In this document: piece by piece, positions 1,944 to 15,516 of the stretch | Position numbering within the stretch: the stretch's first letter is position 1 | Layout: every line of letters begins with the position of its first letter | Assembly: GCA_036381315.1 (NCBI GenBank) | Contig: DASVDB010000059.1 | Coordinates: forward strand, 1-33,582 | Direction of reading: 5' to 3' | DNA: 33,582 nt | From: Bacilli bacterium | Lineage (GTDB): Bacteria > Bacillota > Bacilli > Paenibacillales > KCTC-25726 | Translations under genes and position numbers: made by a program | Notes under the pieces: generated by a model | What the model was told of the DNA's origin: nothing | Seen by the model: only the letters and a program-made list of their open reading frames with translations | The model's database searches: none

Positions 1944-1970
1944 ATAAAAAAACCGCCCCGAAAAAGGGGC
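1944..1970 (-). terminator. Intrinsic terminator after the YjcZ-like gene
   Basis: Read on the minus strand, a GCCCC/GGGGC stem (1966-1970 with 1955-1959) with a 6-base loop is followed by GG and seven Ts. It lies between the YjcZ-like gene and the Cys/His-rich gene and argues that the latter starts at 1875 rather than 1998. Confidence 0.75.
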
Positions 1971-2038
1971 AAGTTATCCGGGGCATATTTACTGGCACGG
2001 TTCGTCCCCGCTGAATATGATGCTGATACAGGCAAGCG

Positions 2039-3401: not shown

Positions 3402-4625
3402 TTACGCCTTGAACACCAGTTCTGCCTTAACAATCCGAATCACATCACCGGCGTGCAGCGTATAGGATTTGTAAGGCAGCAACTTTTCCCCGTTCAGGAA
3501 GCTCCCGTTGACTGAACCCAAATCTTTTACCGCATACGTTTGCCCCACCCGCTCAATTTCGCAGTGTGCTCTGGATATTCCAACAGAATCCAGCACGATC
3601 CCGGCGGAATCGCCTCGACCGATCAAAATCCGTTGCTTGAACAATTCATATGTAATGCTTTTCCCATCAAGCCGCAACTCCAATTTCGCCCCTTGTCGCC
3701 CGGCGGAAACCGCTTGCCCGGATCCCAGAAAAACGGTTGCCGGAGACGCCGGCGCAGATTTAAGCGGCTGACTGTCCAACGCGTCCGCCTGCCGCCGGCT
3801 TTTTTGCGCCCGCTTGAATAGCGGAGCATGCTTTAAAGCCAGATATCCGGCTTCGCCCGCAAGCAACGACACTCCCAGCGCGATATAAACTTTCGCTTCC
3901 GACGGCTCCGCAAGCGCCCAAATCCAGCTGAGCGCCGCCAATGCGAGCGGAATCGCGGCTAACGCCCATTTGCGCCGGATATTGGCGCCCTGTTCTATCT
4001 GTTTCCGTTCGGTTTCCCTGGGCAAATTTCGTTCTGCGATAGGCATAACGGACGCGCGGTCGACCATGGTGCGCAGCAGCGCACGAAATTCCGCCAACTG
4101 AAAAGAATCGCCGTTCAGCGCCTTCATGATCTCCTGGACGCCGTCGCCGTGCAATTCATCAACACTGGCCACCAAACCGGCAGCCAGCTGGCTCAGCCGT
4201 TCTTGCAGCGATTCCCGAAATACCGGGGATTTCATCGGCAAATAAACCAACCGTATATCCGTATAATCCCGATCCGTAAAAATGAGGTCGCCGCGCAAGC
4301 AGACATTGCCCTCATCCAACATATAGTTGCCGCATTCCGCAACGGCGCGGACGATTGCATACAAGACGCAGAAATATTGGCGAATCGTCAGGCGTTCATT
4401 TTTCAGCCGTTGCGCCAAAATCCGCTTGCCGGAGAAATGGTAATAAAACGTATACACAAAATCGCGTTCCTCCGCCGTTACGGGCAAAAAGCCGGGAATC
4501 TCGTTATAGTTGAGCATTTTGATCTGGATCGGCGAAACGTCGCTCTCCGTAATCCCCCTTTTCCCACGGACGGCAAGCGTCAAACCGGAGCGATCCGTAA
4601 AATCTACGGAAAATTGCGCAAACAT
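3402..4625 (-). CDS. FHA-domain membrane protein (DUF6382-like N-terminus), tad operon
   Basis: A 407-residue protein. Residues 1-190 match the pattern of the DUF6382 domain found with FHA in Bacillales and clostridia. Two membrane helices follow (about 220-238 and 245-263), then a Ser/Pro/Ala-rich linker, then a C-terminal FHA domain (330-405) with every expected motif: GR at 336-337, SRAH at 351-354 and NG at 373-374 within DLGSVNGSFLNG. FHA domains bind phosphothreonine, so this protein probably anchors a phosphorylated partner at the membrane. Its start overlaps the end region of the prepilin peptidase gene (GGAGGGATTTGAATG), so it is the last gene of the tad operon. The likely kinase partner is at the other end (13563-15203). 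The phosphopeptide partner is inferred. Confidence 0.85.
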   Translation of the reverse strand: MFAQFSVDFTDRSGLTLAVRGKRGITESDVSPIQIKMLNYNEIPGFLPVTAEERDFVYTFYYHFSGKRILAQRLKNERLTIRQYFCVLYAIVRAVAECGNYMLDEGNVCLRGDLIFTDRDYTDIRLVYLPMKSPVFRESLQERLSQLAAGLVASVDELHGDGVQEIMKALNGDSFQLAEFRALLRTMVDRASVMPIAERNLPRETERKQIEQGANIRRKWALAAIPLALAALSWIWALAEPSEAKVYIALGVSLLAGEAGYLALKHAPLFKRAQKSRRQADALDSQPLKSAPASPATVFLGSGQAVSAGRQGAKLELRLDGKSITYELFKQRILIGRGDSAGIVLDSVGISRAHCEIERVGQTYAVKDLGSVNGSFLNGEKLLPYKSYTLHAGDVIRIVKAELVFKA

Positions 4626-8956: not shown

Positions 8957-9180
8957 TCCGATGGCGAAGGCGCCGGCGAATTCGTAAGATCATTCAGAAA
9001 ATCGCCGTCGTTCAAATTTTGCGCCGATCCGTCCAGAAGCTTATGGATCCAAGTAAGTATCCACTTGCGAAAAATTATGGCGACCACGACAATGACCGCA
9101 ATAATCAAAATAATTTCCAGCGTCCCCGCGCCATCCTCGCTCTTCCAAAGCGTGCGTGCTTTTTGTTTTAGCTTGTTCAT
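8953..9180 (-). CDS. Flp1-like type IVb pilin
   Basis: The major pilin candidate, 75 residues. ATG 9180 is used because GGGAGGAAG precedes it. The leader is basic (MNKLKQKARTLWKSEDG), and cleavage after Gly17 would put Glu22 at mature position +5, as type IV prepilin peptidases require. The conserved helix GTLEIILIIAVIVVVAIIF follows, then an amphipathic stretch and a Ser/Pro/Asp-rich tail. This is the usual form of Flp1-type pilins in Firmicutes. Only one Flp gene is present in the operon. It sits between tadC and the first TadE-like gene. Confidence 0.88.
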   Translation of the reverse strand: MNKLKQKARTLWKSEDGAGTLEIILIIAVIVVVAIIFRKWILTWIHKLLDGSAQNLNDGDFLNDLTNSPAPSPSE

Positions 9181-9198: not shown

Positions 9199-10074
9199 TT
9201 ATTCTTTCAAAAGCATCAATGCCGGCGCAGCGACAACCATCATGACCGCCAAAAAGATAAACAAAAGCGGAAACACCATTTTGGCCGAAGCCTCCGCGCC
9301 CAGCGACCTGGCCACGTTTTTCCGTTTTTCCCAGCACTCCCGCGCCATTTCTTTCAGCCTGCCGGCCAACTCGTCGCCGCCGCGGCGATAGTTCATCACC
9401 ATGGCCATCGCAAACGCCGTTACCTCATGCACGCCGCAGCGGCGCGCAAATTGTTCCATTACATGCGGGAAGGGAAATTGATTAGCCAGTTCTTTTTTAA
9501 CCTGCACCAGTTCTTGAAACAGCCTGCTGTCCGGCTTGCGCCGCGCTAGCTCGGCACAGCGGATTAGCGCATGTTGGGGCTGTTCTCCGGCATTTACAAG
9601 CAGCACCAACGTAGTCAGCATTTCCGGAAGATCAATGAGCATCGAGCGTTTGATCGCTTTTGCTTTGGCGCCAAGTTCCCGCCATAATAAAACCGGCAGC
9701 ACCAGCAAAAACACCAAGCTAGTCTGGCTCAATTCGCCTGATTCGAAAAGCGCGGCGAGTCCCAACATCATCCAGTGCGCAAGAATTGACCATGCGGCCA
9801 CTTGCGCGATAAACAAATTCAGCATCATGCCCGCTTCCTGGTGGCGGCAGCGATAAACCGTCAACAAATGCGGGATTATTCTCGCGCTCAGAGACGGATA
9901 TCGCTTCAGCGGCTCCCATTTTTGCAGCAAATACAAATACGGCACCGAAAGCGCAGCCAGGCGGAAACGCTTTTTCTGCTCCGCCGCCAACGCCCTGACG
10001 TTTGCCGGAGCCAGGATGAACAATACGAGATACACCGCGGTTTCCACCGCCAACAAAACCGTTGGTTCATGCAT
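9199..10074 (-). CDS. tadC: TadC-like pilus platform protein (T2SS F domain)
   Basis: Inner-membrane platform protein that partners TadB, 291 residues from ATG 10074 (MHEPTVLLAVETAV). The frame is open further upstream but overlaps tadB; AAGGTG at the tadB stop serves as the ribosome binding site. An N-terminal helix (8-22) is followed by a soluble part, two helices near 95-150, the T2SSF core (about 155-260; MLIDLPEMLTTLVLLVNAGEQPQHAL, then AFAMAMVMNYRRGGDEL), and a C-terminal helix ending PLLFIFLAVMMVVAAPALMLLKE. Family membership is clear from motif and position. Confidence 0.85.
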   Translation of the reverse strand: MHEPTVLLAVETAVYLVLFILAPANVRALAAEQKKRFRLAALSVPYLYLLQKWEPLKRYPSLSARIIPHLLTVYRCRHQEAGMMLNLFIAQVAAWSILAHWMMLGLAALFESGELSQTSLVFLLVLPVLLWRELGAKAKAIKRSMLIDLPEMLTTLVLLVNAGEQPQHALIRCAELARRKPDSRLFQELVQVKKELANQFPFPHVMEQFARRCGVHEVTAFAMAMVMNYRRGGDELAGRLKEMARECWEKRKNVARSLGAEASAKMVFPLLFIFLAVMMVVAAPALMLLKE

Positions 10075-10082
10075 CGTTTCGT

Positions 10083-10925
10083 TCACACCTTGACGTTCAT
10101 AATGGTTCTTGCCAGCCAAACGCAACACGCCAAAATCAACAGCGCCGTCGTCATGATGATGCGGCCGGCGCCGGCGTATAGCGGCGCCGCGTAATCGGGC
10201 GATCCGTAGCAAATGGCCGCGATAACCGCAAACGGCACGACCGAAAGCGCATTTGCCTCAAACTTTTTTTGCGCTACCATGACGGCGATTTCCTGTTGAA
10301 TTTCGATTTTGTCACCGATGATATGGGATGTTCTGCGGATTACCTCGGACAAGTCCCCGCCCGACCGCTTGCAGCTCGCAAACACCTCGGCAAAATTCGT
10401 GATGTCGTCGATATGCGCCAGTTCGCTGAATTCCCGCATCGCTTGCTCGATCGGGACGCCATTTTCGATTTTGCGGCGAATGGCCGTAAGTTCGCCAATC
10501 ATAACCGATTGCCCGCCGCCATACAGCATGCTCAAATCCGTTATGGCGTCCGCAAGCGAATTTTCCACCGATTTGCCCGCGCCTAATGAAGTTGCGAGCG
10601 AATAAAGCGCCATCTTGAATTGCACAAGCAAATCCCGTTTTCGCTTGTCGATGACCGCCCGCTTGCACAGCCGCGGCGCCAGCAAGCCGCACAATGCCAG
10701 CAATCCTGCCGCAACGCCGTTTTTGTAAAACAGCATGCCGATAACGAAACAGGCGGCGCAGGCCAGGATCGCTACCGGCAGCTGATCGCGCAAGGAATAA
10801 CGATGCAGCTTTTCGATGCTTGGCGGCGGCAAGGCGCTTTTCGGCAACTTTCGCCGTTTCTCCGCCAACATCCATACCATGAAGGCGCCAACCCCAGCGG
10901 CTATAGCCCACAAAATCTCCATCAT
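10083..10925 (-). CDS. tadB: TadB-like pilus platform protein (T2SS F domain)
   Basis: 280 residues, starting MMEILWAIAAGVGAF at ATG 10925 with AAGGAGGAGACGC upstream, overlapping the tadA stop by four bases (ATGA). Helices at about 3-20 and 55-90, then the T2SSF domain with FKMALYSLATSLGAGKSVENSL and EFSELAHIDDITNFAEVFASCKRSGGDL, and C-terminal helices (215-275). With TadC it forms the membrane platform driven by the TadA ATPase. The order tadZ-tadA-tadB-tadC is the standard one. Confidence 0.88.
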   Translation of the reverse strand: MMEILWAIAAGVGAFMVWMLAEKRRKLPKSALPPPSIEKLHRYSLRDQLPVAILACAACFVIGMLFYKNGVAAGLLALCGLLAPRLCKRAVIDKRKRDLLVQFKMALYSLATSLGAGKSVENSLADAITDLSMLYGGGQSVMIGELTAIRRKIENGVPIEQAMREFSELAHIDDITNFAEVFASCKRSGGDLSEVIRRTSHIIGDKIEIQQEIAVMVAQKKFEANALSVVPFAVIAAICYGSPDYAAPLYAGAGRIIMTTALLILACCVWLARTIMNVKV

Positions 10926-12181
10926 GCGTCTCCTCCTTTTGCCCGCAACGGAAGCGGCAGATCGTGATCGGCAAAGCCCCCCATCACCAGTTTCAAGCGG
11001 CGCTGCAAGCGATTGCCCGTTGCGGCCAATTGCCCGATTACGGCTCCATCTTCCGTTTCGCCTTGTTCTTGAAAACGGTAGAGCGGATTCAGCTCGATTT
11101 CCCCGTTTGCAAACCTCACCAGCTCGCAAATCTCCATTACTTTTCGGCTGCGATCCCGCAAGCGCGACAGATGCACCATAATTTCCACCGCGGAGCTGAT
11201 TTGCCGGCGAATGACTTCCACAGGCAAATTGGCGCCGCTATAGACCATCGTTTCGATGCGGCTTAACATATCCTCCACCGAATTCGCATGCCCGGTCGAA
11301 ATGCTGCCATCGTGCCCGGTGTTCATCGCCTGCAGCATGTCCAAAGCTTCAGCGCCGCGCACCTCGCCAACAATTATGCGATTGGGCCGCATGCGGAGAG
11401 ACGCGCGAATCAACTCGCGAATCGTCACATTTCCTTTTCCTTCCGAATTCGCATTGCGCGTCTCCATTTTGACCAGATTCGGCACGGCGGTAATGTTCAG
11501 TTCGGCCGAATCTTCGATCGTAATAATCCGCTCGCCTTGCGGGATGCATTCGGCCAGCGCATTCAACAAAGTCGTTTTGCCGGAACCGGTCCCGCCGCTG
11601 ATGAAGATGTTGTAGCCGGCCCGCACGAGCAATTCCAGCACTTGCCCTGTTTCTTCCGATAACGTTCCTTTCGCTTGCAATTCCGCCAGCGTAAGCGGGC
11701 GCTCGGGAAATTTGCGGATGGTGAGCGTCGGGCCTTTCAGGGCAATCGGCGGCAGCACTACATGCACCCGGGAGCCGTCTTGCAATCTGGCGTCGACGAT
11801 TGGCGACGCTTCGTTGACCGCGCGGTTCACTTTGCCCACGATTAACTGGATGATATCTTCGAGCTTCTCCCTGCTTTCGAATGCAGCGGGGTATTTGTGG
11901 ATTTCCCCCGCTTTTTCGTAAAAGATTTCATCAAAATTGTTGACCATGATCTCCGTTACCGTTTTGTCGTCGACCAGCGCTTGCAACACATCGAGTCCGC
12001 GGAACGAGTTAAATAACCTTTCGGTCAATTGCCGCTTTTGCTCATAAGGGATATAATTCGCGGCCGATTGGGACAAAACGGCTTCCTCGATCCATTCGCG
12101 CAGGCGTTCATCGGGCAAGTCGTCGGCGTGTTTCAACCGCTCCCGCAATTGGTCGCGCAGTTTGCCATACACCTCATCCAT
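10922..12181 (-). CDS. tadA: TadA/CpaF secretion ATPase
   Basis: The motor of the pilus, a VirB11-like hexameric ATPase of 419 residues. The N-terminal domain (1-150) has the CpaF pattern FRGLDVLQALVDDKTVTEIMVN. The Walker A motif GGTGSGKTT is at 196-204, the Asp box TIEDSAEL near 221, the Walker B region RIIVGEVRGAEALDML near 268-283, and the His box STGHANS near 295-301. All catalytic residues are present. The ATG overlaps the tadZ stop by eight bases; GGAGGGGC about 11 bases upstream is its ribosome binding site. Confidence 0.95.
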   Translation of the reverse strand: MDEVYGKLRDQLRERLKHADDLPDERLREWIEEAVLSQSAANYIPYEQKRQLTERLFNSFRGLDVLQALVDDKTVTEIMVNNFDEIFYEKAGEIHKYPAAFESREKLEDIIQLIVGKVNRAVNEASPIVDARLQDGSRVHVVLPPIALKGPTLTIRKFPERPLTLAELQAKGTLSEETGQVLELLVRAGYNIFISGGTGSGKTTLLNALAECIPQGERIITIEDSAELNITAVPNLVKMETRNANSEGKGNVTIRELIRASLRMRPNRIIVGEVRGAEALDMLQAMNTGHDGSISTGHANSVEDMLSRIETMVYSGANLPVEVIRRQISSAVEIMVHLSRLRDRSRKVMEICELVRFANGEIELNPLYRFQEQGETEDGAVIGQLAATGNRLQRRLKLVMGGFADHDLPLPLRAKGGDA

Positions 12182-13307
12182 TGTGGCTCTGCCCCTCCTG
12201 TGCGTTTAGAACCGCGCGTTCCAGCGCGCGCAAATCGTTATCCGGAAACGCAAGCGGCTCGCCGCTTGGGGGCGTAACCGCACCGGGCGCGCGTTCCATT
12301 TCCGGCAATATGCATGGAAACGGCATTTTTCCTGGCAAGCTTATTTGCGGCGTGGCATCGTCCCGCTCCCCTCCTTTGGACCGGTTCAGCACAAACCGGA
12401 TTTTGGCGAACGCAGCCTCCATCTCCCCACCGGTGCGGAATAACTGCCGCAGTTGTTTTTCCGTTTTCCAGACGGATTGCGGATCGGGCGTCAGAAGCCA
12501 AACGACGCAATCTGCCGTTTTTAACGCGGCCTGCAGCGCCTGATGAAAAGCGCCGTCAATATCCGCCACCAAAAAATCCGTCGCGTTTGCGCCGGCGATC
12601 TGTTTAAAAAGGCAGCTTATATCATCTTCGTTCGCCTCCAGCCATTCATCGGAATGTTCGGGCGGGATGATTGCCTCGAAGCCAAACTCCGGGTGCCTGA
12701 TTTTGCGTTTTTCGATGATCTGATGCAACTGTGGATTTTGTTCCTTCAGATGATAAACCAGTTCTGACGGCTCATGATGCGGCGAACTATTCATGATCAC
12801 GGGGACGGCATGATGAAGTTCCATATTCAAATAAACAGCGCGCAAATGTTGCCGGGCAAACGACCTTGCGAGGTTAAACGCAACCGTAGTTTTGCCGCTG
12901 CCGCCCGACGGCGAATAAACCGCGACGATTTTTCCTTTACCCTTTCCTCCTTCCGCATCTTTCAACGTGTTTTCCGCGACCATTTCCAAAAGGTGCGTAA
13001 GCAGTTGACGCAGCGGACGATATTTGGCCACAGCCGGGACGTCCGCATGTTGCCGCATACGCTCGTTGTCCAAAAGCAGCACCAGGCGCCCGCACGCGGA
13101 TTCCGCATCGCTGTCGATTACCATCTCCGGCGCGACAAGCAGCAGATCGGCAGTCTCGCCGCTTAAAATAAACTGCCGGTACAAATGTTCGTCGGTAAAA
13201 CATTTAAGCGTAACTTTGTCCATGTACTCGGACGTGCGGACAAACCGCCCAAATGATGACAAATACGCCGCATCCCGGTCGCATACGACCAGTTTCACCC
13301 TGCCCAC
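12174..13307 (-). CDS. tadZ: TadZ/CpaE-like MinD-family localisation ATPase
   Basis: About 377 residues. Residues 4-105 look like an atypical receiver domain (VKLVVCDRDAAYLSSFGRF), and residues 120-365 form a MinD/ParA-type ATPase with the deviant Walker A SPSGGSGKTTVAFNLAR intact. TadZ/CpaE proteins place the pilus machine in the cell. Start: GTG 13307 has GAGGGGG seven bases upstream; GTG 13313 is also possible but too close to it. It follows the small peptide gene by 17 bases. The kinase gene upstream carries a second, degenerate CpaE-like domain. Confidence 0.87.
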   Translation of the reverse strand: MGRVKLVVCDRDAAYLSSFGRFVRTSEYMDKVTLKCFTDEHLYRQFILSGETADLLLVAPEMVIDSDAESACGRLVLLLDNERMRQHADVPAVAKYRPLRQLLTHLLEMVAENTLKDAEGGKGKGKIVAVYSPSGGSGKTTVAFNLARSFARQHLRAVYLNMELHHAVPVIMNSSPHHEPSELVYHLKEQNPQLHQIIEKRKIRHPEFGFEAIIPPEHSDEWLEANEDDISCLFKQIAGANATDFLVADIDGAFHQALQAALKTADCVVWLLTPDPQSVWKTEKQLRQLFRTGGEMEAAFAKIRFVLNRSKGGERDDATPQISLPGKMPFPCILPEMERAPGAVTPPSGEPLAFPDNDLRALERAVLNAQEGQSHNG

Positions 13308-13324
13308 AAACACGCCCCCTCGCG

Positions 13325-13423
13325 CTAATCGCTGAGCAATCTGGCTATACCGCTAACAATCAGCACCATTGCCGTTACAAAAACCGCCAGAAGCCACTTT
13401 TTCTCCATATTTGCAAAGTTCAT
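13325..13423 (-). CDS. 32-residue membrane peptide at the head of the tad operon
   Basis: A short frame starting MNFANMEKKWLLAV at ATG 13423 and ending ...ARLLSD at 13325. GGAAGGTG lies six bases upstream. It encodes a basic N-terminus and one membrane helix (about residues 10-28). It is the first coding region after the tad promoter and leader terminator and ends 17 bases before tadZ. It could be a small structural or regulatory peptide of the pilus machine, or a leader peptide whose translation affects the downstream genes. I know of no family. Codon use and the ribosome binding site favour a real gene. Confidence 0.6.
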   Translation of the reverse strand: MNFANMEKKWLLAVFVTAMVLIVSGIARLLSD

Positions 13424-13439
13424 CGCCCGCACCTTCCAA

Positions 13440-13480
13440 ATAAAAACCGCGGCATTAGCCCAAACAGGCTAAAACCGCGG
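13440..13480 (-). terminator. Strong hairpin terminator or attenuator in the tad leader
   Basis: On the minus strand CCGCGG (13475-13480) and TTAGCC (13467-13472) pair with GGCTAA (13455-13460) and CCGCGG (13447-13452); a 6-base loop closes the top and TTTTTATTT follows at once. This is a textbook intrinsic terminator. It lies about 40 bases after the predicted tad transcription start and 17 bases before the first small gene, so it could stop tad transcripts early as well as ending the kinase message. Confidence 0.8.
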
Positions 13481-13524
13481 TGCTTCCGCTTTTTGGATAT
13501 GCAAATTATGGTATACACACTATT

Positions 13525-13553
13525 ATTATAACGGTGATTGCACAATTTGGCAA
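13525..13553 (-). promoter_or_regulatory. Sigma-A promoter of the tad operon
   Basis: TTGCCA (13548-13553) and TATAAT (13525-13530) on the minus strand, separated by exactly 17 bases. The -35 is a 4/6 match and the -10 is perfect. Transcription should begin near 13518. The promoter lies only ten bases after the kinase stop codon, between that gene and the leader terminator. Confidence 0.75.
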
Positions 13554-13562
13554 TACCCGTTT

Positions 13563-15203
13563 TTAACGCCTTTGTTTAAATGCCAGCCAGCCCTTTTTCC
13601 GGCGCGATTTGCCGGCAAATGCTCCCGGCGCGAGCAAATCCACAAGCGGCGCGATTCCATGATCAAGCTTCTCCGCAATATGCGGCTGATCGTGCGGCAG
13701 CATGCCTTTGCGCATCGGCGCAAACAGTTCTCTTAGCGGTATTTCCGGAATCGAACAAAGCGGCGGAAACGGCAGAGACGCGATCCATTCCCGCCGGAAG
13801 CGGAAATCGACATCCCGGTTGGCCGCAATGAAGATGTTTTGTCCGTTCCATTTTTCCCGATTTATGAGCGCCAAATGTTCTCTGGTGTCGTTCCGGTTCA
13901 TTTTCCCGGGCACAGGCTCCGCGGCAAACACGACCGCTTCCGCAAATGCGAACAGTTCTTTTACCGCAGGCTTGCGCCAATGGTGGGACACATCGACGAG
14001 CAAAATCGGGGCGGCTATGCCATACAGCAGCATAAGCATGTGCTTGTCGGTCCATTCTTCCGCAAAGCCGGCCGGATTGGCCGGGTACCAATCCGTTCCG
14101 CCGTTTCGCCAATGCGCATAGGCGCCTTGTTGGCCCGTAAACACATCATCCGCCAAAAAGCGATACCCTTGCGGGGCATTCGCCTCTCCCGCCAATATGT
14201 AGTACAGCTCGGGTTCATTCAGCGGCGATTCAATTACCGCATGCGCCACTTTGCAGCGATGCAAAGCCCGCGCCAACGCAACGGTCAAAAAGGTCGACCC
14301 GGCGCCGGGATAAAGGGAAGCCAACAGCACCAGCTTTTTCTTCGTTTCGGCGCCGCCGGGCAGCTTGCACGCCGCAACGGACAACCCGGCGCGCTCGCGT
14401 TCCAGTAAATTTGCGAGAAGCGCTTTTACTTCCTCGGCGGATTGCAAACGTTCAGCCGGGTCGTCCCGCAGCAGCCGGTCGACCAACGCCGTTACATCTT
14501 CTTGCAAATCGTTGCGCTCTTCGGCAATCGGCTTTCGCGCCACGCTGTAATATTGGCCTTCCGTTAACGCATAATACAGCAGCGCTCCCAGCGAATACAG
14601 GTCGGCGCGTTCGTCGCTTTGCACATGCTCGAATAATTCCGGAGCGGCGAACCCGATTGTTCCGATTTGCAGCGTATCGGCGAGATGGTCCTGTTTGAAT
14701 TTGCGCGCAATGCCGAAATCGATCAGTCTTACGTTGCCGCGTTGATCGATGATGACGTTGGAAGGCTTCAGGTCGCGAAAAATGATGCGCTGTTCCGTGC
14801 CATGATGCAAATATTCCAGCAACTCGCACAACTGCCGCGCATATTCCAGCAATTCGCTTAACGGCAATTGCCATTTTCGCTTAAAGAGCAGCTGTTCCAG
14901 CGTGTCACCGGCAACATATTCCATGATCAAATAGGCTTTGCCGCTTTCGTCGGGCGGAAAATAATCGACGATATCGGGCAGGTGCGGATGGTTGAGCCGC
15001 ATCAGCATTTCCGCTTCGACCTGAAAAGCGCTTTTTCCTTCCGCCGTCCAATCGGTCGCTTTCACCGCCCGCTTTTTCCCGTTCAGCCTGATATCGGCGG
15101 CCAAATAAACCGCGCCCATCCCTCCTTTGCCAAGCGGCTTCATAATGCGGTAACGGTTTCCGATCAATTCTCCCGCCTGCAATAAGCCTGAATCCTGTTC
15201 CAT
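13563..15203 (-). CDS. Ser/Thr protein kinase fused to a degenerate CpaE/MinD-like domain
   Basis: 546 residues from ATG 15203 (MEQDSGLLQAGELIGNRY), with GAGGTG six bases upstream. Residues 17-270 are a Hanks-type kinase: glycine loop GKGGMGAVY (25-33), AVK lysine at 48, catalytic loop FRDLKPSN (142-149), DFG at 162-164, APE at 187-189. All catalytic residues are present. Residues 288-546 resemble a MinD/CpaE ATPase, but the P-loop reads LYPGAGSTFLTVALARAL (298-315), lacking the lysine of GGxGKT, so nucleotide binding is probably lost or altered. There is no membrane helix or PASTA repeat, unlike PrkC. It lies directly upstream of the tad operon on the same strand and probably phosphorylates a tad component read by the FHA protein (inferred). 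Confidence 0.9.
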   Translation of the reverse strand: MEQDSGLLQAGELIGNRYRIMKPLGKGGMGAVYLAADIRLNGKKRAVKATDWTAEGKSAFQVEAEMLMRLNHPHLPDIVDYFPPDESGKAYLIMEYVAGDTLEQLLFKRKWQLPLSELLEYARQLCELLEYLHHGTEQRIIFRDLKPSNVIIDQRGNVRLIDFGIARKFKQDHLADTLQIGTIGFAAPELFEHVQSDERADLYSLGALLYYALTEGQYYSVARKPIAEERNDLQEDVTALVDRLLRDDPAERLQSAEEVKALLANLLERERAGLSVAACKLPGGAETKKKLVLLASLYPGAGSTFLTVALARALHRCKVAHAVIESPLNEPELYYILAGEANAPQGYRFLADDVFTGQQGAYAHWRNGGTDWYPANPAGFAEEWTDKHMLMLLYGIAAPILLVDVSHHWRKPAVKELFAFAEAVVFAAEPVPGKMNRNDTREHLALINREKWNGQNIFIAANRDVDFRFRREWIASLPFPPLCSIPEIPLRELFAPMRKGMLPHDQPHIAEKLDHGIAPLVDLLAPGAFAGKSRRKKGWLAFKQRR

Positions 15204-15220
15204 TTGCATCACCTCACCGG

Positions 15221-15253
15221 TAAAAATAAAAAAACCTTTCCGCGCGGGAAAGG
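15221..15253 (-). terminator. Intrinsic terminator just before the kinase gene
   Basis: Minus strand CCTTTCC (15247-15253), five-base loop CGCGC, GGAAAGG (15235-15241), followed by seven Ts and then ATTTTT. It lies only about 18 bases before the kinase start codon, so transcripts from the leader promoter must pass it to express the kinase. This placement is typical of riboswitch or attenuator control. Confidence 0.8.
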
Positions 15254-15291
15254 CTGCTGGCAAACTGGCAAGTGCATTGTTTATCGATTGC

Positions 15292-15381
15292 GGTAAAATG
15301 CAGCCTGAACGCGCTACGGCATGAATTGTTTTGCCCGACCAAAAGCAATGAAACACTTTCGCCGTTCAGGTATGCTTTACC
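15292..15381 (-). ncRNA. Candidate structured cis-regulatory leader of the kinase gene
   Basis: Between the promoter and terminator, the minus-strand transcript can fold into a long nested structure. The outer stem is GGTAAA (15376-15381) with TTTACC (15292-15297), extended by GCA/TGC. The next is an 8-bp stem CCTGAACG (15363-15370) with CGTTCAGG (15304-15311). The apical arm is ATTG-TTTTG paired with CAAAA-CAAT (15325-15349) around a GTCGGG loop with one bulged C. I compared it mentally with the common Firmicutes riboswitch classes (c-di-GMP I and II, c-di-AMP, SAM, T-box, ZTP, preQ1, purine) and found none of their conserved cores. Class and ligand are unknown. Confidence 0.5.
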
Positions 15382-15391
15382 TTGATTGTTT

Positions 15392-15397
15392 ATTATA
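15392..15397 (-). promoter_or_regulatory. -10 element of the kinase leader
   Basis: A perfect TATAAT on the minus strand, about 190 bases before the kinase start and 11 bases before the structured leader. The -35 region is weak (TGGATT at 17 bases), but a CTGGA...TCCAG inverted repeat fills the spacer and may bind a regulator. The remaining part of the 15204-15577 gap is described by the entries around it. Confidence 0.45.
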
Positions 15398-15516
15398 CTG
15401 GAATTTCCGAAAAAATCCAGTCTTCTTTTTCGCTGATATTTTATCATAAATATAATGTGAAAAATATTATTGCCAACAACTGAGATTTATTGTATATTTA
15501 CTTTAATGTTGATCGG

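Follow-up and report, generated by a model that had tools for sequence, protein, structure and literature searches.

The gene of a Ser/Thr protein kinase at the head of a Tad pilus locus is preceded by a leader which carries its own intrinsic terminator. This raises the question of what kind of signal decides whether transcription reaches the kinase gene. A preliminary description of this leader had reported a TATAAT, nested stems of 6+3, 8 and 9 bp and a terminator 18 nt upstream of the kinase ATG, and had proposed a leader controlled by a ligand or a protein. These parts are present in the sequence, and the MFE fold reproduces the same nested stems and the terminator. On the minus strand, GGTAAAGCA (15381-15373) pairs with TGCATTTTACC (15302-15292) in an outer helix of 6+3 bp, while CCTGAACG (15370-15363) and CGTTCAGG (15311-15304) form an inner helix of 8 bp. 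The kinase ATG at position 15203 is preceded by GAGGTG. No good -35 box accompanies the TATAAT, which is absent from the sites listed by the sigma-70 scan. Directly 5′ of it, an imperfect inverted repeat CTGGA...TCCAG was found (15398-15420, minus strand), which is a possible operator. All features of the window, i.e., the whole analyzed stretch of 33,582 nt, are listed in Table 1.

Table 1. Features of the kinase leader and the Tad locus in the window (R1, covariance model of the hairpin-terminator element).
Feature	Positions	Strand	Evidence
-10-like TATAAT of the kinase leader	15392..15397	-	sequence
AGGTA-AAGCA-TACCT mini-hairpin, 15 nt, probable divergent copy of the regulon element	15368..15382	-	sequence, sister-genus identity
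5′ half of the long-range helix (GGTAAAGCA + CCTGAACG), mutually exclusive with the mini-hairpin	15363..15381	-	MFE fold
3′ half of the long-range helix (CGTTCAGG and TGCATTTTACC), interpreted as terminator-like arm, U tract weak	15292..15311	-	MFE fold
Strong intrinsic terminator 18 nt 5′ of the kinase ATG (stem of 9 bp, T7 tract)	15222..15255	-	sequence and fold
Ser/Thr protein kinase (Pkinase, 546 aa), at the head of the Tad locus	13563..15203	-	Pfam
-10-like TATAAT of the canonical copy	13525..13530	-	sequence
Canonical element GCGG-AAGCA-CCGC before the Tad operon, between kinase and tadZ	13477..13489	-	R1 match 13438-13491, 41.6 bits (also a training sequence of R1)
Intrinsic terminator using the ACCGC arm of the canonical element	13440..13481	-	z -4.73
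32-codon ORF MNFANMEKKWLLAVFVTAMVLIVSGIARLLSD, between Tad attenuator and tadZ	13325..13423	-	sequence
TadZ-like ATPase	12174..13313	-	Pfam
CpaF-like Tad pilus ATPase (T2SSE)	10922..12181	-	Pfam
TadB/TadC-like platform proteins, two overlapping T2SSF genes	9199..11129	-	Pfam
DUF6382-FHA protein, far end of the Tad gene run	3402..4625	-	Pfam

The fold energy of the kinase leader is ordinary for its composition. The whole leader reaches -49.9 kcal/mol compared to -48.9 kcal/mol for shuffled sequences (z -0.24), and 78 of 200 shuffles were equally stable. Lower values were obtained for the nested domain alone (z -1.94, 8 of 200 shuffles) and for the terminator stem (z -1.57, 14 of 200 shuffles). 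A comparison with Rfam 15 gave no match over the leader, even at E<=5, and none in the window at family thresholds, in agreement with the earlier statement that no conserved core of a known riboswitch was seen. Among 61 genomes, no DNA relatives of the leader were found except short terminator-like scraps. The nested 15292-15381 fold is not kept in related leaders, and in the sister genus only an AAGCA hairpin and the terminator are retained. A riboswitch-type sensor made of the nested stems, as the anatomy had suggested, therefore finds no support, because the fold is missing in related leaders; a leader which bears a terminator and is controlled by a protein is still plausible.

Conservation and covariation were found in a smaller structure of 13-15 nt, and not in the 15292-15381 stems, for which they had been suggested as a check. 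In the kinase leader this mini-hairpin lies inside the nested fold, had not been named before, and starts 9-10 nt 3′ of the TATAAT. When the leader was shuffled with its dinucleotides preserved, 109 of 20000 sequences (~0.5%) contained a hairpin of at least 4 bp with a loop of the AAGCA class. The kinase leaders barely align with each other, yet the sister genus (L007) keeps the identical 15-mer GGTAAAGCATACCTG (hairpin GGTA-AAGCA-TACC) before the orthologous kinase gene. There, the hairpin adjoins a GCCTTTC terminator, which is homologous to the one in the window, and no arm is common to both. In the window, the terminator (15255-15222) lies downstream and does not use the arm of the mini-hairpin either; the whole mini-hairpin, loop and both arms, is absorbed by the GGTAAAGCA/TGCATTTTACC and CCTGAACG/CGTTCAGG helix. 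A comparable topology is seen in a named Paenibacillus record (NZ_CP013205.1, 87322-100269), where the hairpin GGGA-AAGCA-TCCC before the kinase gene is opposed by AAAGGGAAAGC/GCTTTCCC-T6, a terminator pairing the 5′ arm and the loop. In this record, the same kinase is followed by Tad-type genes, from which the order is taken to be Paenibacillales. It was deposited as a plasmid and may be a chromosome fragment, since housekeeping-type genes (ribonuclease Z, DNA repair) adjoin the kinase-Tad locus.

A hairpin of 4-7 bp with the loop AAG(C/A/T)A just 3′ of a promoter is present in the window at 15368-15382 and at 13477-13489. The latter is the canonical copy, in which the 3′ arm of the hairpin is at the same time part of the terminator stem (13440-13489). 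Its comparison with Rfam yielded sub-threshold chance matches only. Two further R1 matches in the window (1944-2011 and 9133-9168) resemble simple terminators and were rejected as elements. The Tad/Flp pilus locus downstream also encodes a TadE-like protein (Pfam). At a position equivalent to that of the 32-codon ORF, short membrane-type ORFs were observed in four related loci (L007, L014, L124, and L125). Relatives of the kinase were found in 182 of 200 genomes of the order, and a search of the contigs of the own genome returned distant kinases only.

Across the order, the element consists of a 4-7 bp hairpin with the loop AAGCA or AAGAA, here called AAGMA, between a promoter and an intrinsic terminator which uses bases of the hairpin. 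In kinase leaders of other genera it occurs as GCGG-AAGAA-CCGC, GCGG-AAGCA-CCGC, GACGG-AAGCA-CCGTC or CGGGA-AAGCA-TCCCG, and the 3′ arm of the hairpin, often together with loop bases, almost always doubles as the 5′ arm of the terminator. The orientation toward the gene and the overlap with the terminator are constant. The loop is nearly invariant apart from its fourth base, which varies between C, A and U. A gene-anchored search of 30 recA leaders, agnostic over all 1024 pentaloops, returned 22 with a hairpin and an arm-sharing terminator, with the loops AAGAA (15), AAGCA (6) and AAGTA (1); no loop outside this class was seen twice. The same loop-agnostic search of 90 kinase leaders gave AAGAA 21 times and AAGCA 7 times, the next loop being found twice. 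If candidates were chosen by loop and terminator only, irrespective of the stem, 79 of 296 were fully paired, compared to 7.3 expected. In a set of 53 distinct copies, two-sided changes occur at all four pairs (43 such cells vs. 11.5 in shuffled sequences). Since most of these copies were selected for having a stem, the percentage paired is not independent, and the better guide is the covariation score of 0.666, compared to 0.223 for shuffles and at most 0.21 in slid registers.

In the own genome, the motif CGGAAGMACCG occurs nine times and its reversed control not at all. Six of the nine occurrences look coding, and the three intergenic ones precede tadZ, recA and an SLH operon. In one genus (L010, L012, L013 and similar), the -10 of the kinase promoter lies inside a long palindrome, CCCTCTTATAATCAAGGTAAATCTTACCTGATAAGGGGG, which might form the end of the methyltransferase gene upstream and also contain the RBS of the kinase gene; due to its different loop it was set apart from the AAGMA elements. 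An Rfam search of 20 related loci identified only a c-di-GMP-I riboswitch, which lies outside the element. This riboswitch (74.3 bits; L023:3459-3541 and L126:1860-1942, minus strand) is located ~300 nt 5′ of the AAGMA element before the kinase gene of one genome, a possible case of double control.

The covariance model R1, which was trained on kinase and tadZ copies, gave 49 matches at E<=0.05 in 15 genomes, 44 of them before assignable gene types, the downstream genes being read by eye. These are tadZ (14, one of them, in G036, assigned by position only), SLH-domain proteins (8), kinase (7), recA (6), comEA (2), HRDC proteins (2), wHTH proteins (2), comM/YifB, a ComFA-like helicase and a SAF/CpaB-like protein; 23 of the 44 matches belong to gene types outside the training set. 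In addition, comEC (DUF4131) leaders carry the element with GAGG/CCTC and GGGG/CCCC stems. The recA copy sits between cinA and a LexA-box promoter, where the gene identities were partly read by eye. Many comEA leaders lack the element, including that of the own comEA. Beyond the order, R1 matches are few and in other contexts, some of them before unrelated genes. R1-like hairpin-terminators outside or beside the regulon were also observed in L231, L235, L233, and L243, those in L231 and L235 before genes which look like parts of mobile elements. The conserved hairpin of the leader is common to a regulon and not peculiar to the kinase gene. R1 does not detect the kinase leader of the window, so its membership rests on the hairpin, its position and one sister genus. 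On these grounds, it quite probably belongs to the AAGMA regulon as a divergent copy.

In Bacillus subtilis, the DNA-binding activator ComK controls the comE genes, recA, comF and the DNA-uptake pilus together. The gene set described here is similar, but its common signal is an RNA hairpin-terminator. ComK (PF06338) was found in none of the 61 genomes, with B. subtilis as positive control, and control by ComK was therefore rejected. ComGA was above the cut-off in none of the 61 genomes, while ComEA was present in 60. A study on P. polymyxa from 2021 listed comEA, comEC and tad genes, did not find comGB/comGC, proposed the Flp/Tad pilus as competence pilus and did not settle which condition is inducing (PMC8370563). 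Liberibacter crescens depends on Tad pili to take up DNA, and transformation of Micrococcus luteus requires tad-like genes (PMC8513845). The Tad pilus would serve DNA uptake here as in these species, for which no RNA element was found in the literature searched. Among open-licence papers, nothing was found on such an element, on competence attenuation or on the control of competence in Paenibacillus. The best reading of the gene context is that the element marks what appears to be a competence-like regulon in genomes without ComK.

The following regulation can be assumed for these leaders. RNA polymerase would start just 5′ of the element and produce the small hairpin with its AAG(C/A)A loop. 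By default, the bases of the hairpin would be captured by an alternative helix, which in canonical copies is the overlapping intrinsic terminator. In the kinase leader, which may work in the same way despite its divergence, it would be the long helix of GGTAAAGCA and TGCATTTTACC, followed by the strong terminator, so that transcription ends before the kinase gene. The terminator would be hindered once the AAGMA hairpin is held by a trans-acting factor, probably one that binds RNA, and the kinase, Tad pilus and other DNA-uptake genes could then be transcribed. The canonical hairpin and its terminator are mutually exclusive, because they have bases in common. With ~-4 to -5 kcal/mol the mini-hairpin is weak and the terminator (13440-13491, -27 kcal/mol) is strong, therefore the latter should win unaided and a factor which recognizes the loop is the simplest reading. 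We consider it reasonably probable that the kinase leader is a transcription attenuator of the order-wide regulon, in which the factor-held hairpin blocks the terminator; antitermination that depends on such a factor seems to be a somewhat better than even assumption for the mechanism as such. Candidates for the factor, as nucleic-acid-binding proteins, are uncharacterized HRDC-domain proteins with an HTH-like end, which are themselves in the regulon (L158:537-1541 and L161:502-1509). A gene near tex, encoding a basic N-terminus and a winged-helix C-terminus, carries its own AGTG-AAGCA-CACT element (L153:377-1177 and L157:406-1109). As regulator, this wHTH protein was rejected, since no full-length relative exists outside its group or in most other genomes. 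CsrA was considered because GCGGA contains GGA, and was dismissed as the GGTA and GGTG copies have no GGA at that place.

It could be argued that the canonical copies alone are real and that the kinase leader of the window is a common 5′ leader, its terminator being fixed and its hairpin a product of chance. This would agree with its z of -0.24, with its escape from R1 and with the missing arm-sharing terminator at 15382. Nevertheless, we regard it as unlikely, given how rarely such a hairpin appears in shuffles, its exact retention in the sister genus despite the poor alignment of the leaders, and the AAGMA element at the same place in many other genera. An attenuator is also preferred over a DNA operator for a repressor or activator. 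A palindrome just 3′ of a -10 box invites the latter reading, since inverted repeats are typical of operators, but here compensated changes occur freely in the arms and the asymmetric AAGMA between them is constant, which is the reverse of an operator pattern, and neither the orientation to the gene nor the overlap with the terminator changes. This makes an operator very unlikely.

For the nested 15292-15381 fold, the resemblance to a transcriptional riboswitch and the z of -1.94 for this domain would speak for a ligand-binding aptamer, which is nevertheless highly improbable since Rfam gave no match at two thresholds and the fold is lost even in the sister genus. In Bacillus velezensis, LoaP acts on the dfn and mln leaders of polyketide clusters, where a hairpin with a UNCG tetraloop before intrinsic terminators is needed for factor-dependent read-through (PMC12691694). 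A small leader hairpin 5′ of an intrinsic terminator is common to both cases, so that a LoaP-type NusG paralog or another processive antitermination system could read the AAGMA hairpin. However, the LoaP hairpin differs in its loop, stands apart from the terminator stem and does not belong to DNA-uptake genes, and LoaP (NF033641) was above the cut-off in 7 of 61 genomes, the own genome not among them, while the element is general. Since it is absent in most genomes, LoaP was ruled out as the general factor. Genomes which bear the element largely lack any NusG paralog, and a reader of this type is extremely improbable.

The factor-held hairpin also has parallels in other systems. RAT sequences of the BglG/SacY type, which control sugar use, are protein-stabilized hairpins overlapping and excluding a terminator, with an imperfect stem of ~29 nt and internal loops. 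The AAGMA hairpin is likewise proposed to exclude a terminator, but has a perfect stem of 4-7 bp and a pentaloop, and belongs to DNA-uptake genes. The boxB of lambda N antitermination combines a short stem with an A-rich pentaloop, the fourth base of which is extruded. The variable fourth base of AAGMA would fit such an extruded base, but the similarity is a likeness only and boxB does not overlap a terminator. ANTAR-controlled leaders contain two hexaloop hairpins overlapping the terminator, whereas the canonical copies here have a single hairpin with a pentaloop. Taken together, no match to an Rfam family, the LoaP leader, the ANTAR leader or the ComK regulon was obtained.

The common RNA signal before DNA-uptake genes, the Tad pilus and recA provides a regulon obtained without experiment; it may also yield a reporter for finding the inducing conditions, and its hairpin may serve as bait for the regulator. 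If the reading is true, it would be, to our knowledge, the first competence regulon governed at transcription termination. For the whole Paenibacillus-like order, we tentatively propose, at a little short of an even chance, that competence is switched by one RNA-binding antiterminator of AAGMA hairpins and not by a DNA-binding activator or a sigma factor. This would be a new kind of competence master control, comprising the genes of the Tad pilus, comEA, comEC, comF, comM, recA and the kinase.
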